Below are positions 39,827-47,476 of a DNA stretch of 64,000 bases, in pieces. Position 1 is the stretch's first letter. Every line of letters begins with the position of its first letter. The position numbers and the translations under genes are program-made. The DNA comes from Acidobacteriaceae bacterium. Its GTDB lineage: Bacteria; Acidobacteriota; Terriglobia; Terriglobales; Acidobacteriaceae. The notes beneath the pieces were generated by a model. The model was not told where the DNA came from. It searched no databases and worked only from the letters and a program-made list of their open reading frames with translations. The stretch spans positions 1 through 64,000 of the forward strand of contig JASHNW010000060.1 of assembly GCA_030041435.1 (NCBI GenBank), read 5' to 3'.

Positions 39827-40609
39827 TCACAACGCAGAGGGGTAAGGCTGCTCTTCGGCCTGGTGGAGAGCGAAATCGGTGAGTTCTGCGAGCGCGTCGG
39901 CCTGGGCCTCGCGCATAGCCTCTCCGGCGAGCAGAATCGACGGCGCGGGAAGCGGCGCGATGCCATCGAGCTGCGCCAGCGTGGTGCGGACAATCTGCTG
40001 ATCGGGCTGGGCAGCGCGCGAAACAACGACGCAGGGCAGATCGGCGGGAAGACCTTCGCGGCGCAATTGCGCGGCGGTGCTGCTTAGATCGCGGCCCGGC
40101 ATGTAGACGACGCGCGTGGCGCCGGCCAGCGAGGCTGGCTCCAGGCTGGATCCCGGCGCATGGTGGCCTGAAGAGAAGCTGATACTGGAGGCGGTGCGGC
40201 GGTCGGTAAGCGGACGGCGCAGCGCTGCCGCAGCCGCAAAGGCGGCCGTAATGCCGGGGACCACCTCAAAGGGAATGCCGGCTGCGCGGAGGGCATCCAT
40301 CTCCTCGCCCGCTCGGCCGAAGACGAGCGGATCGCCGGACTTGAGCCGCACGACGGAAAGGCCCCGGCGCGCGTAATCCACCATCATCGCGTCGATTTGT
40401 TCCTGGGAGATGTTTTTGCGGCCGCAGCGCTTGCCGACATTGATGACGATGGCGCTCGCGGCATGGCCGAGGATCGCCGGCGGCACCAAGTCGTCGTGGA
40501 GGACGACATCGGCGGCGCCCAGCAGGCGCGCAGCTTTCAGGGTCAGCAGTTCCGGATCGCCGGGACCGGCGCCGACGAGGTAGACCGTTCCGGGGCTCGT
40601 ACCGGTCAT
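39827..40609 (-). CDS. cobA: Uroporphyrinogen-III C-methyltransferase
   Basis: The 260-residue SAM-dependent methyltransferase has VYLVGAGPGDPELLTLKA, the DVVLHDDLVPPAIL region, VRLKSGDPLVFGRAGEE and GITAAFAAAA. It makes precorrin-2 from uroporphyrinogen III in siroheme and cobalamin synthesis. Start at 40609 with GGAG upstream overlaps the stop of the oxidase/chelatase gene by four bases. It is the last gene of the three-gene siroheme/sulfite-reductase operon, so its role here is siroheme supply. Confidence 0.92.
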   Translation of the reverse strand: MTGTSPGTVYLVGAGPGDPELLTLKAARLLGAADVVLHDDLVPPAILGHAASAIVINVGKRCGRKNISQEQIDAMMVDYARRGLSVVRLKSGDPLVFGRAGEEMDALRAAGIPFEVVPGITAAFAAAAALRRPLTDRRTASSISFSSGHHAPGSSLEPASLAGATRVVYMPGRDLSSTAAQLRREGLPADLPCVVVSRAAQPDQQIVRTTLAQLDGIAPLPAPSILLAGEAMREAQADALAELTDFALHQAEEQPYPSAL

Positions 40610-41241
40610 GCGGAGGCTCCACGCAATGCATCGATCCGCTGCTGCGCGAAGTGGCGCGTGGGGCAGTCGGTCAAGGCACAGAGCGGGCGTTGAGCCAGCT
40701 CGTGGAGGAGAAGGTTGCGGGCTTCTCCGGCGGGTGCGGCACTGCGAACTTCGTGGCGGAGAGCGCCGAGTTCGGCGAGCCAGGGGCCGAGATCGGCGGG
40801 TAGCTGGGCGTCGATTTCCCGGCGGAGACGCTGCGCGAGCGCGGGGCTTTCGCCGGCCGTGGAGATGGCAATTTGCAGATCCCCGCGGCTTACGACCGAT
40901 CCAAAGTAGAAATCGCAGTTCGGCGGATCGTCGACGGCGTTGCAAAGGACATTGCGGCGCAGAGCCTCCTCGTAAACGGCGCGGTTCACGGCGGGCGCGT
41001 TGGTCGCCGCGATCACGAGGAATACGCCTTCGAGGTCGGAAGCCTGAAAGAGGCGCCGGCGCCAGGTCAAAGCGCCCTCGGTTGCCAGCGTCCTGACCGC
41101 AACGGCTGCCTCGGGAGCGACGACAGCGATTGCAGCTCCGGCGTTGCGCAGACTTTGGATTTTCGCCAGCGCGACGGTGCCGGCGCCGACAACAAGGCAC
41201 GGCCGGCGCTCAAGGCGAAGAAAGATGGGCAACAGGCTCAC
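40606..41241 (-). CDS. Precorrin-2 dehydrogenase (CysG N-terminal / Met8-like)
   Basis: From GTG 41241 (GAGGAG seven bases upstream) the 211-residue protein has the NAD-binding motif LLPIFLRLERRPCLVVGAGTVALAK and the family block NAVDDPPNCDFYFGSVVSRGDLQIAISTAGESPALA. It oxidises precorrin-2 to sirohydrochlorin and may also insert iron, as Met8p and the CysG N-terminal part do. It sits between the reductase (10-base gap) and cobA, completing siroheme synthesis. Confidence 0.9.
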   Translation of the reverse strand: MSLLPIFLRLERRPCLVVGAGTVALAKIQSLRNAGAAIAVVAPEAAVAVRTLATEGALTWRRRLFQASDLEGVFLVIAATNAPAVNRAVYEEALRRNVLCNAVDDPPNCDFYFGSVVSRGDLQIAISTAGESPALAQRLRREIDAQLPADLGPWLAELGALRHEVRSAAPAGEARNLLLHELAQRPLCALTDCPTRHFAQQRIDALRGASA

Positions 41242-41251
41242 GGGCGTCTCC

Positions 41252-42964
41252 TCAACCAGCCAGCTCGACGGGAACGCGGCCGCTGGGCAGGTCGCGCTCG
41301 ACGGGAACCAGATCCTCGCCGGCCAGCGCGGCGCGAAGCTCCGCGTCGCTGCTGCGGCCAAAATACCTGCGCAGGGTCTCGTTCGGCTCGCGCTCGGCGA
41401 GATACCTGCGCAGCAGACGTTCGACGGCGTCCGGGACCAGGTGTGCGGGTGTGCGGAATCCAACAGGACGAGCGGTCCCGGCATGCTTGCCGACCGACCC
41501 GCCGACACAGAAGTAGTATGCGTCAGTCAGCTGTCCTTCGTGCTTGATTTTCTTGCCTTCGAGTCCGAGATCGGCGATCCAGTGCTGACCGCAGCTGTTG
41601 GGGCAGCCGGTAACGTGCAGGCGCAGCTGCTGATCGAACTGGGGCAGGCGCTCTTCCAGCTCATCGACCAGCCAGCGCAGGAAGCCTTTCGTCTCGGTGA
41701 TGGCCAGTTTGCAGAACTCCGTGCCGGTGCAGGCAATGCCGCCGCGCCAGAAGGGCGAGCCGTCGACACGCAGCCCGATGTGTTCCAGCTCGCGGACAAG
41801 CTCAGCGGCGCGCGCGGCGGGGATGTTGAGGAAGAGCAGATTCTGCATGACGGTGAGGCGCAGTTCGCCGGGATGTCCGCTCCCGGGGCTGCCGAAGCGC
41901 TCGGCCAGGTCGGCAGCCGCGGCCAGTTGATCGCCGGTGAGGCGCCCGCGCAGGACGCTGGCGCCAACATGACACAGGCCGGGCTGCTTCTGGCGATGAA
42001 TGCCGGTGTGGTCGCGCAGGATATCGTCGGGGATCGCTTCTTCGACGCCGGGCGAGAGCGTGTAGCCGAGGCGGCTCTCGATCTCAAACAAAAAGCGCTC
42101 GGCGGTCCAGCCTTCTTTCATGAACAGGTACTTGAGACGCGCGCGATCGCGGCTTTCACGGAGAACCTGCTGATCGCGGAAGATTTCGGTGATGGCGCGG
42201 ACGACCGGCACCGCCTGGTCCTGACGGACAAAGGCGTCGAGGCGGACGGCGAGATGCGGCTCGTTCGACAGGCCGCCTCCGACGCGAACGGAGTAGCCGA
42301 TTTCGTCACCGCGGCGGACAGCGGTTAGGGCGATGTCGTTGATCTCGGGGTACGAGCACCAGACAGGGCAGCCGGTAACGGAAATCTTGAACTTGCGCGG
42401 GAGGTTGTAGAAGTCGTCGTTGCCGCGCAGGGTGCGCGCGATCTCGAGAGCGAGGGGCGAGGCGTCGATCAGCTCGTCGTGGGCGATGCCGGCCAGTGGG
42501 CAGCCGGTGACATTGCGAACCACGTCGCCGCAGGCTCCTTTGGGCGAGAGGCCGACGGCGTCCAGAGCCTCCATGATCCCGGGCAGCGACTCGATGGTGA
42601 GCCAGTGGTACTGAATATTTTGGCGGACCGTGATGTCGGCGAGATTGCGGCCGTGGCGCTGTGCGATCTCGGCGAGGACACGGGCCTGGTCAACGCGCAG
42701 GATGCCGTTGGGGAGGGCGACGCGCATCATGAAGAACTCCGTGGCTTTTCCTTCGCCGCCTTTGCCGCCGGTCACGCCGAGGCCGTCGCCCTGGGTATAA
42801 ATGCCCCACCAGCGGAAGTAAGTGTTCCATTCCTCGGGGATGGAGTTGCGGCCGTCACGGGCAAAGGCACGAATCTCGTCGATCGCGTCCCAGGGGTTCT
42901 TCTCGCGCTTCAGGCGCTCAGCTTTCTGTGCTTTAGTCTCTTTAGTTGCAACAAGTTCCGCCAT
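41252..42964 (-). CDS. Siroheme-dependent sulfite (or nitrite) reductase, ferredoxin type
   Basis: The 570-residue protein has the two-fold ferrodoxin-like reductase repeat and the siroheme/4Fe-4S ligand cysteines (ACTGTEFCKLAITETKG and TGCPNSCGQHWIADLG), with substrate-binding VRQNIQYHWLTIE. Sequence alone cannot separate sulfite from nitrite reductases, but its operon partners make siroheme and its leader carries a cysteine-codon run with an attenuator-like terminator, so assimilatory sulfite reductase is favoured. It uses electrons from ferredoxin; no CysJ flavoprotein is adjacent. A NirA annotation is therefore less likely. Confidence 0.88.
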   Translation of the reverse strand: MAELVATKETKAQKAERLKREKNPWDAIDEIRAFARDGRNSIPEEWNTYFRWWGIYTQGDGLGVTGGKGGEGKATEFFMMRVALPNGILRVDQARVLAEIAQRHGRNLADITVRQNIQYHWLTIESLPGIMEALDAVGLSPKGACGDVVRNVTGCPLAGIAHDELIDASPLALEIARTLRGNDDFYNLPRKFKISVTGCPVWCSYPEINDIALTAVRRGDEIGYSVRVGGGLSNEPHLAVRLDAFVRQDQAVPVVRAITEIFRDQQVLRESRDRARLKYLFMKEGWTAERFLFEIESRLGYTLSPGVEEAIPDDILRDHTGIHRQKQPGLCHVGASVLRGRLTGDQLAAAADLAERFGSPGSGHPGELRLTVMQNLLFLNIPAARAAELVRELEHIGLRVDGSPFWRGGIACTGTEFCKLAITETKGFLRWLVDELEERLPQFDQQLRLHVTGCPNSCGQHWIADLGLEGKKIKHEGQLTDAYYFCVGGSVGKHAGTARPVGFRTPAHLVPDAVERLLRRYLAEREPNETLRRYFGRSSDAELRAALAGEDLVPVERDLPSGRVPVELAG

Positions 42965-43005
42965 GATGACTCCGATTCGAACTCAGGAAGGCGATGGGGA
43001 GAAAT

Positions 43006-43042
43006 AAAAAGCCCGCGTCAGCGTGGGCTGAAGCGCGGGCTT
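43006..43042 (-). terminator. Attenuator-like intrinsic terminator in the reductase leader
   Basis: On the minus strand AAGCCCGCG and CGCGGGCTT (43042-43034 and 43017-43009) form a perfect 9-bp stem, with a nested CAGC/GCTG in the loop, followed by TTTTTAT. It lies 27 bases downstream of the cysteine-rich leader frame and about 45 bases upstream of the reductase start, within the same transcript. Confidence 0.8.
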
Positions 43043-43069
43043 ATGGGGTGCGGTGCTTTGAGGAGGGGC

Positions 43070-43138
43070 TCACCCACAAGTCCGGCGCAAGGCGCAACAA
43101 CAAGCGCAACAAGACACCGGCTTGGAGATAAGAACCAT
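43070..43138 (-). CDS. Cysteine-rich leader peptide (22 residues) for the sulfite reductase operon
   Basis: ATG 43138 begins a 22-codon frame ending at TGA 43070. Cysteine occurs at positions 10, 11, 13, 14, 15 and 21, including the run CCACCC encoded by TGT and TGC codons. It lies directly in front of an intrinsic terminator and the siroheme/sulfite-reductase operon, and behind a promoter whose -10 box is seven bases away. The bases TGTGGGTGAG that cover its last cysteine codon and stop can pair with the terminator loop (TTCAGCCCACG). This is the layout of a ribosome-mediated attenuator sensing cysteinyl-tRNA: stalling at the cysteine run frees that segment to open the terminator. No comparable peptide is known to me in Acidobacteria; similar cysteine-rich upstream frames exist in mycobacteria. 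Confidence 0.7.
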   Translation of the reverse strand: MVLISKPVSCCACCCALRRTCG

Positions 43139-43145
43139 TGGAATG

Positions 43146-43175
43146 ATCTTAAGGTAACTATGCCCGGAGCGTCAA
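43146..43175 (-). promoter_or_regulatory. Promoter of the leader-reductase operon
   Basis: Minus-strand TTGACG (43175-43170) is followed after 18 bases by TAAGAT (43151-43146). Seven bases later comes the leader ATG, so the RNA should start at or next to the start codon (leaderless). Confidence 0.55.
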
Positions 43176-43228: not shown

Positions 43229-43244
43229 TATAATCGCCGATTAT
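43229..43244 (+). promoter_or_regulatory. TATAAT box and inverted repeat over the start of the methyltransferase gene
   Basis: A perfect TATAAT (43229-43234) lies eight bases before ATG 43243, so this transcript also looks leaderless. ATAATC-GCC-GATTAT (43230-43244) is an inverted repeat over the -10 and start codon, and CCGAA-ACG-TTCGG (43214-43226) is another just upstream. Both could be operators. Confidence 0.45.
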
Positions 43245-43803
43245 GCTGTGGATTGTGGCGGTTGCGGAGATGTTCGTGTGCTGGGTGGCGTGGTCGCTGG
43301 CGTTCATCCGGCCGAGCCGCGAGGCTGCAGGACGTACTGAAGTCACCCGTGCGCCGTCGTCCAAATGGGGCATCGTGCTGGTGATGGTGGGATTCGCGTT
43401 GCTCTGGGCATATGTTCGACCTGTGGGTTTCCGCAAGTCGGATCTATCCCTGATCCTGTCCATGGTGCTGGGGCCGCCTTCGGTCGCGCTGGTCTGGGCC
43501 GCGACACGGCACCTGGGCAAGCAGTGGCGCTATCAGGCAGCGTTGCGCGCAGACCATGAGCTGATCCGGACGGGACCGTATGCGTGGATTCGGCACCCCA
43601 TCTACACATCGATGCTGGGGATGGTGCTGGCAACGGGATTGTGCTGGACGTGGTGGCCTCTGTTTGTGGCCTCACTGATCTTCTTTGTGGCAGGGACCGA
43701 GATTCGGGTGAAAGCCGAAGACCGGCTGCTCGCGGAGCGGTTCGGGGAGACGTTCGTCGCCTACCGGACCCGAGTTCCGGCGTATTTGCCGTTTGTGCGA
43801 TGA
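43243..43803 (+). CDS. Isoprenylcysteine carboxyl methyltransferase-family membrane protein
   Basis: The 186-residue protein has about five membrane helices and the family C-terminal block LIRTGPYAWIRHPIYTSMLG followed by EDRLLAERFGETFVAYRTRV. Such proteins use SAM to methylate lipids, thiols or other small compounds; bacterial members are not protein-prenyl enzymes in general. It is divergent from the cysteine-attenuated operon; a sulfur-related substrate is possible but unsupported. Confidence 0.8.
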   Translation: MLWIVAVAEMFVCWVAWSLAFIRPSREAAGRTEVTRAPSSKWGIVLVMVGFALLWAYVRPVGFRKSDLSLILSMVLGPPSVALVWAATRHLGKQWRYQAALRADHELIRTGPYAWIRHPIYTSMLGMVLATGLCWTWWPLFVASLIFFVAGTEIRVKAEDRLLAERFGETFVAYRTRVPAYLPFVR

Positions 43804-44401: not shown

Positions 44402-44709
44402 TGCCCCCTCTTCTGAGCCGCTGGTCATGCACCCGAAAATCTGCCTTTGCGTTTGCCGGGCTTTGATCCAGTTGGGCTGAAGCGATATGACCAGAAGCGC
44501 AGCGGCGGAACAATCAGACGAAGGTATCGGCAATACTTTGGTATGGGATTTCGATTTTGATCTCCGGGATGGGCAGCGTTGCAGACTCAGGGTTTTTGAC
44601 TTGGGACGGGCGACGATTTATAACGGCCTTTCCGGCTGAAATTTTTTCTGACGGGAAAAGAAGGCGCGAGGGCGCGGCGGGAATCTTCCTGCCGGTGCGT
44701 TCGCGTAAA

Positions 44710-44912
44710 GCCAGAATTCGCACAGGGATGCTCGGGAAGGCGGTGAAAATCCGCCACTGCCCCGCAACTGTAAGCGCGTGGTCCTGCGTCTGGTCTTTTT
44801 GAGACGCAGGAAAAGCCAGGCCGAAGCGCCACTGGAGCCCAGGGGTTCCGGGAAGGCTGCCGGGCTTTGTTCCCCAGGAACGACGCGCAAGTCAGGAGAC
44901 CGGTCCCGTGTG
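44710..44912 (+). promoter_or_regulatory. Cobalamin (adenosylcobalamin) riboswitch
   Basis: The conserved core reads GGGAAGGCGGTGAAAATCCG then CCACTGCCCCGCAACTGTAA (44734-44773), and the B12 box AAGTCAGGAGACCGG closes it near 44889-44903. A small hairpin, CGTTCC-gagg-GGAACG (44948-44963), lies just before the ribosome site GGAGG, so a translational off-switch is plausible. It precedes the BtuB-like receptor, the classical target. Confidence 0.93.
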
Positions 44913-44971
44913 CCAGGGCGGGCGCTGCTGCGCCGACTCGTTCACCGCGTTCCGAGGGGAACGGAGGACTT

Positions 44972-47476
44972 ATGACGTATTTTCCGCGGCCTGTGCGCCG
45001 CCTTCTTTGCATTTTCGGGCTGACTGCCGCGACGACTGCGAGCCACGCGGTCACCGTTCATGGAACGGTGACGGATCCGCTGGGAGCGCCCATTGCGCAC
45101 GCCGTTGTGGCGCTGGTGCATGACGGCAAGGTCATCGTGTCCGGACAGACCGGCTTTGACGGGAGCTACACCCTTTCCAGCGCCGATTCAGGGCGCTTTT
45201 ACGTTCTGGCGTCGGGGCATTCATTCCGGCAACTGCAGACGCAGAGTTTTTACGGCGGGACCCTGGACGATGTGGCACAGAACGTGGTGCTGGAGCCGGA
45301 GTGGGTGCGGCAGTCGGTGGTGGTGACGGCGACGGGCGAGCCGGAGCCGCAGGCGCAAACCAGCGGATCGGTGACGGGGATTGGGGCAACGCAGTACGAG
45401 AACCGGATGACGATTGTCGACACTCTGCGGCAGATTCCGGGACTGGACGTGGTGCAGACAGGCGAACTGGGCGGGGAGACGTCGCTGTTCATCCGCGGGG
45501 GCTCGTCGACGGCGAACCGGGTGGTGATGGACGGCGTGCCCATCGAGGATATTGGCGGGCGGTTCGACTTTACGAATCTGGCGACGACGGGCCTCGAAAG
45601 CGTGGAAGCGTACCGCGGGCCGAACAGTGTGCTTTACGGGTCCGATGCTGCGGCGGGTGTGGTGGCGGTGACAACGCCGCGCGGGAGCACACCGTTTCCG
45701 TCCCTGCTGTACGAGGGCAGCGCAGGGAGCTTTGGCACGTACAGGAACCAGGTGCAGCTGGCGGGGATGAAGCGGAAGCTGGATTACTATGGCGGATTCT
45801 CTAGCCTGGAGACGCGGAATTCGATCCCGATGGATGCGTACCACGATGACACGGGAGTGGCGAACGTGGGCTGGAGCTGGTCGGCGAAGACCGAGATGCG
45901 GGTGACCGCGCGTAACAGCGATTCGGCGACGGGGCTGCCGGCGGGGAACAGCGGCTACTCGTTCTATGGGATCGCGAACGACGGCAAGCAGCTGGACCAG
46001 GACACCTATGGAACCGGCACGATTACGCATGCGTTTCGCGACAACCTGCACGCGACGGCGCGGTATGGGCTGGTGCGAAAACGCGAGGAGAGCGAGCAGT
46101 GGTATCCGGCGGGGAATTTGATCGCGGGCAATTATTACGGCGATTTCGAAACGGTGACAGGCGCCAATGGCGACACGGTGCGCGGGCTGGCGCTGCTGAA
46201 TTACGGATCGTCGTCCGGGGCGGTGTATCCCTACCAGCTGGCGCTGGCGTCGAACCGTGACGATCTGTATGCGGAGATGAATTACGTGCACGGGCCGCAT
46301 CTGGCGGTGGTCGGGGGCGCGCGGTACGAGAACGAGCGCGGCGTGGAGAAGGAGCCGGTGTACGCCTACCGCGAGGGCCTGGAGCGGGAGAACTACGATT
46401 ACCAGGCGCAGGTGGGCGGCGAGTTTAAGAATCGGCTGTTCTACACGGCGGCCGGGAACGTGGAGAAGAACGGGCTGTTTGGGACGGTTGGGACGCCGCA
46501 CGCGGGCGGAAGCTACTACCTGGTGCGGCCGGGCAAGGGAGCGCGGGGGACGAAGCTGGACTTCAACTTTGCGCGTGGGTACCAGGAGCCGACGCTCGAT
46601 CAGCAGTTCGGGTCGCTCTATACGTTCCTGACGAAAAACGGCGGCCAGGCGACGGCGGCACAATATGGAATTACGCCGATCGGCGCGGAGCAGGCACGAA
46701 CGTACGACGGAGGGGTGGAGCAGAGCCTGTTCAGCGAAAAAGTAACTCTGCGCGCTACCTATTTTCACAACGAGTTTGGGAACCAGATTGAGGCGGTGCC
46801 GGCGTCGCTGGTGCCGGTGCTGTTGCCGAACCTTACGGCAGCGCAGCAGCAGAGCCTGCAGGCGTTTCTGAACAACAATTACGCGTACGAGCTGGATTTG
46901 AATTCGATGTCGTACCGGGCGCAGGGCGCCGAGGGCGAGGTGGAGTACGGGCTGGGGAAGAGCGTCTTCCTGCGCGGCGGGTATACGTATCTGGACGCGG
47001 TGGTGCAGCGCTCGTTCGCGTCAGATGGACCGAGCGCCTGCAGTTCGACCGGAACGACGGGGCCGTGCACGAATCCGGGCTTTCCGGGGATTCCGATCGG
47101 GAACTATGCGCCACTGATTGGGGCGCGGCCGTTCCGCAGGCCGCCGCACACAGCGTTCGCCAGCGCGATCTACACGGGAAGAAAATGGACCGGCGTGGTC
47201 GATGCGGCGTACGCCAGCCGCAGCGACGACTCGACCTACCTGGGTGGCGATGACGTGAACGGGGGCAACACGCTGCTGCTGCCGAACCGCGACCTGGACT
47301 ATGCCTACGCGAAGATCGACGTGGGCGCCAGCTATGAGTGGAAGCCGTGGGCGACGGTGTACTCACAACTGAATAACCTGAGCAGCAACCAGCACATTGG
47401 ACCGATCGGCTATCCGTCGCTGCCGTTCACCTTCGAGACGGGAATGCGCTTCACGCTGAGCCTGGGCAAGCGGTAA
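44972..47476 (+). CDS. Vitamin B12-regulated TonB-dependent receptor (BtuB-like)
   Basis: From ATG 44972 (GGAGG seven bases upstream) the 834-residue receptor has a signal peptide, a short carboxypeptidase-regulatory-like domain (VHGTVTDPLGAPIAHAVVAL, to about 110), a plug with DTLRQIPGLDVVQTGELGG, SLFIRGGSSTANRVVMDGVP and EDIGGRFDFTNL, and a barrel ending in FTLSLGKR. The riboswitch in front of it implies repression by cobalamin and so uptake of cobalamin or a cobinamide. BtuCDF are not in the window. The regulatory-like extra domain is unusual for BtuB, which normally goes straight from signal to plug. Confidence 0.88.
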   Translation: MTYFPRPVRRLLCIFGLTAATTASHAVTVHGTVTDPLGAPIAHAVVALVHDGKVIVSGQTGFDGSYTLSSADSGRFYVLASGHSFRQLQTQSFYGGTLDDVAQNVVLEPEWVRQSVVVTATGEPEPQAQTSGSVTGIGATQYENRMTIVDTLRQIPGLDVVQTGELGGETSLFIRGGSSTANRVVMDGVPIEDIGGRFDFTNLATTGLESVEAYRGPNSVLYGSDAAAGVVAVTTPRGSTPFPSLLYEGSAGSFGTYRNQVQLAGMKRKLDYYGGFSSLETRNSIPMDAYHDDTGVANVGWSWSAKTEMRVTARNSDSATGLPAGNSGYSFYGIANDGKQLDQDTYGTGTITHAFRDNLHATARYGLVRKREESEQWYPAGNLIAGNYYGDFETVTGANGDTVRGLALLNYGSSSGAVYPYQLALASNRDDLYAEMNYVHGPHLAVVGGARYENERGVEKEPVYAYREGLERENYDYQAQVGGEFKNRLFYTAAGNVEKNGLFGTVGTPHAGGSYYLVRPGKGARGTKLDFNFARGYQEPTLDQQFGSLYTFLTKNGGQATAAQYGITPIGAEQARTYDGGVEQSLFSEKVTLRATYFHNEFGNQIEAVPASLVPVLLPNLTAAQQQSLQAFLNNNYAYELDLNSMSYRAQGAEGEVEYGLGKSVFLRGGYTYLDAVVQRSFASDGPSACSSTGTTGPCTNPGFPGIPIGNYAPLIGARPFRRPPHTAFASAIYTGRKWTGVVDAAYASRSDDSTYLGGDDVNGGNTLLLPNRDLDYAYAKIDVGASYEWKPWATVYSQLNNLSSNQHIGPIGYPSLPFTFETGMRFTLSLGKR

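Follow-up and report, generated by a model that had tools for sequence, protein, structure and literature searches.

Attenuators of the trp and his type have a leader peptide in which the regulated amino acid is abundant, the strand pairings 1:2, 2:3 and 3:4, and a terminator with a U run. Canestrari et al. (2020) reportedly described leaderless polycysteine short ORFs before cysteine-related genes in mycobacteria, with control that is said, in the papers citing that work, to be translational. In the cys leader peptides of actinobacteria, which precede cys operons, Cys codons come in runs close to the stop of a short frame; the accessible part of the 2005 survey describing them reports no conserved terminator for the mycobacterial cases, and suggests Rho-dependent termination as one possibility (PMC1262725). 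In Rhodobacterales, the uORFC-8-2 motif before cysS is predicted to act by ribosome-mediated attenuation, with stalling leading to read-through, and its excerpted description includes tandem Cys codons in an upstream ORF and a terminator (PMC8632094). Among the matches listed from open-licence PMC papers, no title or abstract concerned cysteine attenuation in Acidobacteriota.

The window, meaning the whole stretch of 64,000 nucleotides that was analysed, carries on its minus strand a short Cys-rich frame, a hairpin trailed by a T-rich tract, and a sulfite/nitrite reductase family gene (Table 1). The parts, their conservation, their complementarity and their co-variation across species were computed here. 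Their best explanation is, very probably, transcription attenuation mediated by the ribosome, with charged tRNA-Cys as the signal sensed, and the sulfite reductase would then most likely be made only when cysteine is short. By analogy, the predicted system is one that works like a trp-type attenuator with a mycobacteria-like leaderless leader. The leader peptide, the strands 1:2, 2:3 and 3:4 and the terminator come in the same order as in the trp- and his-type attenuators; unlike in those, translation seems to start at the 5' end without a Shine-Dalgarno sequence, and the pairing of strand 1 is weak in clade B.

Table 1. Features of the putative cysteine leader, its predicted terminator and its proposed target genes, and a second leader in the same genome
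Feature	Location	Strand	Remarks
-35 element TTGACG	43170..43175	minus	sequence; similar elements in relatives
-10 element TAAGAT	43146..43151	minus	18 nt after the -35 element, 7 nt before the leader ATG
Leader ORF MVLISKPVSCCACCCALRRTCG (stop)	43070..43138	minus	22 codons, six Cys, no Shine-Dalgarno seen
Strand 1	43114..43132	minus	protector; pairs with 43088-43069 without a ribosome; mean pairing probability 0.76 before strand 4
Cys codon cluster TGT TGC GCT TGT TGT TGC	43094..43111	minus	proposed stall site; Cys runs conserved among relatives
Strand 2, antiterminator 5' side, GCGCCGGACTTGTGGG	43073..43088	minus	last leader codons; included in the swap test (74 sequences)
Strand 3, antiterminator 3' side, CCCATAAGCCCGCGC	43033..43047	minus	contains the whole 5' arm of the terminator
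Intrinsic terminator hairpin AAGCCCGCG..CGCGGGCTT (strands 3 and 4)	43009..43042	minus	dG -22.9 kcal/mol, predicted
T-rich tract TTTATTTCT	43000..43008	minus	directly after the hairpin
Sulfite/nitrite reductase family hemoprotein	41252..42964	minus	570 residues; first gene after the leader
Frame with siroheme synthase N-terminal domain	40606..41508	minus	domain in residues 93-278; domain start near 41232
Uroporphyrinogen-III C-methyltransferase	39827..40591	minus	siroheme synthesis
Second leaderless polycysteine leader (L146 / L179)	G000 contig 105, ~67.8-68.7 kb	minus	predicted terminator and antiterminator

Judged from partial accounts of them, the mycobacterial polycysteine ORFs are the closest to the window leader in start and codons. 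Both are short ORFs with contiguous Cys codons before cysteine-related genes, leaderless in mycobacteria and apparently so here, and the cysteine response through ribosome elongation that the citing papers give for the mycobacterial ORFs is also proposed here. On the same accounts the control is translational in mycobacteria, whereas a terminator-like hairpin with a competing antiterminator is found here, in another phylum. The actinobacterial cys leaders share the Cys-codon runs and differ in that the accessible survey text identifies no terminator, against a T-tailed hairpin here (PMC1262725). Among the matches listed, uORFC-8-2 is, as far as its excerpted description goes, the closest terminator-based cysteine attenuator; it is a motif of Alphaproteobacteria before cysS, with two Cys codons that mostly occupy positions 14 and 15 (PMC8632094). 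The leaders reported here look leaderless, belong to Acidobacteriota, precede reductase, cysD and peroxiredoxin-family genes, and contain 3 to 11 Cys where they precede the reductase. The window leader departs from the excerpted uORFC-8-2 description, as the next gene is of the reductase family and its six Cys, at positions 10, 11, 13-15 and 21, are grouped as a pair, a triple and a single. Because the mycobacterial leaderless ORFs and the Rhodobacterales cysS attenuator were already known, the system would be a new variant and not a new kind. It would join two things that have been described apart, namely leaderless polycysteine ORFs, whose control in mycobacteria is described as translational, and terminator-based attenuation.

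An earlier note on this DNA had claimed a 22-codon minus-strand frame with six Cys at 43138-43070, which was read here as it had been stated. It was the only one of the 306 ATG frames of 10-60 codons in the window to have at least 4 Cys in 8 residues. A chance ORF was set aside on this uniqueness and on 40 shuffles of the 64 kb, which gave a mean of 0.025 frames with at least 5 Cys per shuffle. At least 4 Cys in 7 residues were found in 53 of 74 upstream windows of 420 nt (that of the window included), whereas 11 of 1273 windows drawn at random from this DNA had as many. The frame thus shows the enrichment in codons for the amino acid of the regulated pathway that characterises attenuator leaders, with six Cys in 22 codons.

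Eighty relatives were fetched, of which L006 was excluded since it begins inside the gene, leaving 79 with upstream DNA. In the comparison across relatives that the earlier note had called for, the leader, the Cys runs and the hairpin proved to be kept across Acidobacteriaceae, with a Cys-rich frame and a T-tailed hairpin before the orthologous reductase in 73 of the 79 relatives. A Cys-rich frame was assigned in 74 of the 79; the nine-residue frame of L043 was dropped, and the remaining 73 were combined with the window to give the 74 sequences analysed below. Six relatives had no leader directly before the reductase (L033, L043, L058, L045, L070 and L075). In L033 and L043, cysH is directly upstream of the reductase. 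In L058, a Cys-rich leader with a hairpin was located farther away, ~1.3 kb upstream; the gene behind it is YeiH-like (132 bits, below the cut-off of 232.6). No leader was found in the available upstream DNA of L045, L070 and L075. The L020 and L070 contigs are labelled Opitutia and Rhodanobacteraceae, and their reductases are 70% and 67% identical to that of the window, respectively; L020 carries the leader. Both are possibly misbinned metagenome contigs.

The number of Cys per leader ranged from 3 to 11 among the 74 reductase leaders. The form of the Cys run varied by lineage (CCACCC, CCRCC, CCCTCCCCACVC and others), with CCxCC-like motifs recurring, and the leader sequence outside the Cys cluster was not shared between clades. 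The Cys codon choice in the leaders was 260 TGT to 137 TGC, compared with 61 TGT to 688 TGC in the reductase genes. TGT is the wobble codon for the usual tRNA-Cys, and its preference in the leaders may therefore lengthen the pause. A leader whose Cys-rich nascent peptide senses a metal or thiol oxidants and arrests the ribosome, with tRNA-Cys charging irrelevant, would suit the recurrent CCxCC-type motifs, and one of the targets is a peroxiredoxin-family gene, a redox gene. We rate this explanation as quite improbable, as the non-Cys peptide sequence differs between clades, the number of Cys varies over the range given above, and most of the targets found are cysteine-biosynthesis genes. The excess of TGT over TGC in the reductase leaders also suits slow decoding, although the peroxiredoxin leaders are even in this respect (50 TGT and 49 TGC in 19 leaders). 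That the leader is a small protein with a function of its own, and the hairpin merely its terminator, we find scarcely credible. Short Cys-rich proteins do exist, and the frame has its own promoter; against this, nothing outside the Cys cluster is shared between clades, and strand 2 keeps its complementarity to the terminator arm while both change.

On the minus strand between 43175 and 42964, TTGACG, TAAGAT, the leader, a 27-nt spacer, the hairpin, its T-rich tail and the reductase ATG follow in this order. The distance from the -10 element to the ATG is 7 nt, which makes a transcript start at or beside the leader ATG probable; the window leader looks leaderless. A leaderless promoter was scored as TANNNT 5-11 nt before an in-frame start codon, together with a hexamer, spaced 16-19 nt from it, that agrees with TTGACA in 4 or more positions. 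Such a promoter was present in 58 of the 74 leaders (in 46 at 6-7 nt), whereas shuffled upstream sequence gave a mean of 1.9 and a maximum of 7 in 200 rounds. A Shine-Dalgarno-like tetramer was seen before 2 of the 74 leaders, compared with 28 of the 33 reductase starts placed exactly at an ATG. These counts match the leaderless start of the mycobacterial ORFs, with the start site predicted from the promoter. In a Sulfotelmatobacter-like clade, the -10 element lies ~10 nt from the leader ATG, so that, by the same prediction, the 5' UTR would be a few bases long. The promoter pattern including the ATG had 7 matches in the genome, with the window leader among them, and 2 for the backward control; the pattern TGYTGYNNNTGYTGY had 91 matches, compared with 46 for the backward control.

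The terminator with a U run that the earlier note had placed before the reductase ATG at 42964 was recovered as a hairpin at 43042-43009 followed by the T-rich tail. The region 43145-42950 folded better than 200 of 200 dinucleotide shuffles (z -3.55). The lowest-energy whole fold of the stretch from antiterminator to terminator (-36.9 kcal/mol) keeps the terminator together with small upstream stems. The hairpins after the leader in the 74 sequences ranged from -10.1 to -28.6 kcal/mol (median -20.1), with 7 of the 74 set by hand where the script had missed them or picked poor ones. At least 5 T were present in the 8 nt after the hairpin in 58 of the 74 sequences, and just 3 T in 7. A terminator between the leader and the first gene is thus predicted from sequence in all 74, and the lack of a terminator reported for the mycobacterial ORFs is not shared. 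An Rfam scan of the leader stretch gave no family at the gathering score. A lenient scan returned RF01142 (11.2 bits, gathering score 45), and RF02424 (Bp2_287) matched 43006-43121 on the plus strand opposite the leader (29.5 bits, gathering score 70); both were taken as chance.

The hairpin bears on whether the leader instead works by translational attenuation of the mycobacterial kind, gating the reductase ribosome-binding site, with the hairpin incidental. In both systems, going by the partial accounts of the mycobacterial one, sulfur genes are preceded by leaderless polycysteine ORFs, and the ordinary Shine-Dalgarno at 28 of 33 reductase starts may be a site that could be masked. Translational gating is nevertheless improbable, in that each of the 74 leaders has a T-tailed hairpin behind it whose 5' arm is the predicted pairing partner of strand 2, while the accessible text of the 2005 survey reports that no conserved terminator was found in the mycobacterial cases (PMC1262725).

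The antiterminator of the transcriptional attenuator differs from the one first proposed. The earlier note had the segment covering the last Cys and stop codons pair with the terminator loop. That pairing can form, with -14.2 kcal/mol in the window, but it is not the best antiterminator, and the loop did not hold as the main partner. With a longer strand 2 of 29 nt, pairing to the spacer plus the terminator's 5' arm was stronger in 9 of the 9 sequences of clade A, the clade of the window (-18.8 to -27.4 kcal/mol). With the earlier note's strand of 14 nt alone, four of the nine clade A sequences (the window, L001, L008 and L009) paired with the loop as well as or better than with the spacer plus arm, with -14.2 for the loop and -13.4 kcal/mol for the spacer plus arm in the window. 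Loop pairing as the main antiterminator was rejected, being strong just in the window and L001 (-13.9 kcal/mol), with -5.4 to -10.1 kcal/mol in the other seven clade A sequences. The window antiterminator consists of GCGC.GG.CTTGTGGG (43088-43073) with CCCATAAG.CC.GCGC (43047-43033), plus a small inner stem. Its energy (-23.3 kcal/mol) is set against -23.4 kcal/mol for the bare terminator.

The competition was analysed by folding the RNA that is free of the ribosome, up to but excluding strand 4, and scoring the upstream pairing of the terminator's 5' arm; the front edge of the stalled ribosome was assumed to lie 13 nt past the A-site base. The mean predicted pairing over the 74 sequences was 0.68 for a ribosome stalled at the Cys run; one placed at the stop codon gave 0.28, and shuffles of the intervening sequence gave 0.51, in keeping with the earlier proposal that a ribosome at the stop covers the pairing segment and that an early stall frees it. 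L039 entered this run with a poor hairpin, and the corrected one was used in the swap test below. The stalled-state pairing exceeded the sequence's own shuffle mean in 69 of the 74, with a shuffle fraction of 0.05 or less in only 16. For the window alone, it was not significant (0.61 compared with a shuffle mean of 0.55, with 40% of shuffles as high). Footprints of 10, 13 and 16 nt with the stall at the first or second Cys left 69-71 of the 74 sequences above the stop state. Moving the stall to the cluster's last Cys shrank the effect to 0.42-0.53 compared with 0.26-0.30, with 45-55 of 74 above the stop state, and abolished it in the window; the model thus needs an early stall. Once strand 4 was present, the equilibrium fold of the stalled RNA favoured the terminator (mean 0.76; window 0.83), so the model also needs co-transcriptional trapping. 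Without translation, the probability of the protector pairing 1:2 was 0.76 in the window, with means of 0.57 in clade A and 0.11 in clade B.

In a swap test across species, strand 2 paired with its own target at a mean of -25.3 kcal/mol, compared with -21.1 kcal/mol for permuted partners (sd 0.41; lowest of 5000 permutations -22.5), in a permutation that ignores relatedness. Within clade B, the values were -27.6 for own and -24.8 for other partners. Two groups were exceptions: clade C strands fitted the partners of other clades better (-26.6, own -24.2), and six unplaced loci fitted their own no better than foreign strands did (-19.9 and -20.2). RNAalifold on MAFFT alignments found the antiterminator significant in clade C (z -4.7), and not significant in clade A (z -1.2) or in clade B (z +0.4); the core pairs hardly vary among 15 clade B sequences. 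An exclusive antiterminator that is freed by a stall and covered at the stop was thus found in silico over the set, a set-wide result in which the window alone is not significant and the alignment-based covariation is weak.

From these parts we infer the start site, the stalling, the termination and the cysteine response as follows. Transcription would begin at or within a few bases of the leader ATG, and a ribosome would load directly at the exposed 5' end. If Cys-tRNA is plentiful, the ribosome would run on to the stop and cover strand 2, so that terminator 3:4 forms and ends transcription ahead of the reductase. When Cys-tRNA is scarce, an early stall in the CCACCC run would leave strand 2 free to form pairing 2:3, with the spacer and the 5' arm of the terminator, ahead of the synthesis of strand 4, and the polymerase would go on into the sulfite reductase and siroheme genes. 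In RNA without a ribosome, strand 1 would pair with strand 2, and the terminator would form. The earlier proposal of a Cys leader peptide with an attenuator and read-through on Cys-tRNA shortage is supported in silico, by conservation and by the cross-species pairing.

The NCBIfam matches of the window reductase were all below their cut-offs, the best being NirA-type and sulfite reductase models. Its reading as an assimilatory sulfite reductase rests on the neighbours of two orthologues: cysD-cysN-cysH precede the one in L033, and cysH precedes the one in L043. A reductase paralogue with 35% identity in the same genome had no Cys-rich frame in the preceding 450 nt.

Cysteine control seems to reach beyond the sulfite reductase operon; in relatives, the same switch appears to act on genes for sulfate activation and on an enzyme that destroys peroxide. 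This wider control and the leaderless start both seem to be additions to the earlier reading. Sixteen of 17 further reductases of the family were preceded by a Cys-rich frame. A cysD match was obtained in 23 of 60 family genomes, 21 of them above the cut-off, giving 23 CysD loci, and 17 of these had a frame of at least 3 Cys in 8 residues within 450 nt, which is a loose criterion. By judgement, 14 of the 17 frames were well placed, 6 of which lie outside the folding test. Terminator-like hairpins accompanied the leaders of cysD, which encodes sulfate adenylyltransferase, at L152, L156, L161, L163, L164, L168, L169 and L173. The genome of the window has a cysD of its own (L150), with no Cys-rich frame by the same criterion in the preceding 450 nt. 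In other families of the phylum, 3 of 12 reductase-family loci (L136, L141 and L142) had a Cys-rich frame and a terminator, with strands that are complementary though their letters are quite different. A second set of 20 loci was assembled from 9 of the 17 further family reductases, 8 cysD loci and these 3 of 12 loci, all picked because a Cys-rich frame and a hairpin were present. In this set, the 5'-arm pairing was 0.72 stalled, 0.23 at the stop and 0.52 in shuffles, with 18 of 20 above their own shuffle mean and all 20 exceeding the value for a ribosome at the stop.

Another of the 7 promoter-pattern matches in the same genome opens a second polycysteine frame, MIASAPTCMCCCCCRGNMRVCP (stop); behind it come a T-tailed hairpin and then a peroxiredoxin-family gene (best model 183.8 bits, cut-off 211). 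A frame of at least 3 Cys in 7 residues was found within 350 nt at 20 of 30 peroxiredoxin loci, which are the best places from 80 genomes searched, one per genome, and give no family frequency; the nearest background for this criterion was 143 of 1273 windows of 420 nt. The 5' arm of the terminator read [A/G]CCCACCC in 18 of the 20 leaders. L198 was left out of the folding as no terminator was found, and the 19 leaders tested gave a 5'-arm pairing of 0.83 stalled, 0.15 at the stop and 0.54 in shuffles, with 18 of 19 above their own shuffle mean (the exception was L199).

The leaders at 20 of the 30 peroxiredoxin-family loci suggest that Cys charging may be read as a stress signal. Thiol oxidation would drain free cysteine, uncharged tRNA-Cys would stall the ribosome on the leaderless leader, and the peroxiredoxin transcript would be released. 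If this were true, it would be a redox sensor made of codons and RNA only, without a redox-sensing protein. A Cys-attenuation regulon of Acidobacteriota that couples tRNA-Cys charging to sulfur assimilation and peroxide defence is a tentative proposal, which we hold to be possible but on balance doubtful.

Two further features were noted in the window. A divergent gene adjoining the promoter (43243-43803, plus strand) is weakly isoprenylcysteine methyltransferase-like (74 bits, cut-off 160). A cobalamin riboswitch (Rfam, 70.3 bits) lies at 44709-44923 on the plus strand, before a long frame at 44867-47476 that resembles a TonB-dependent receptor.
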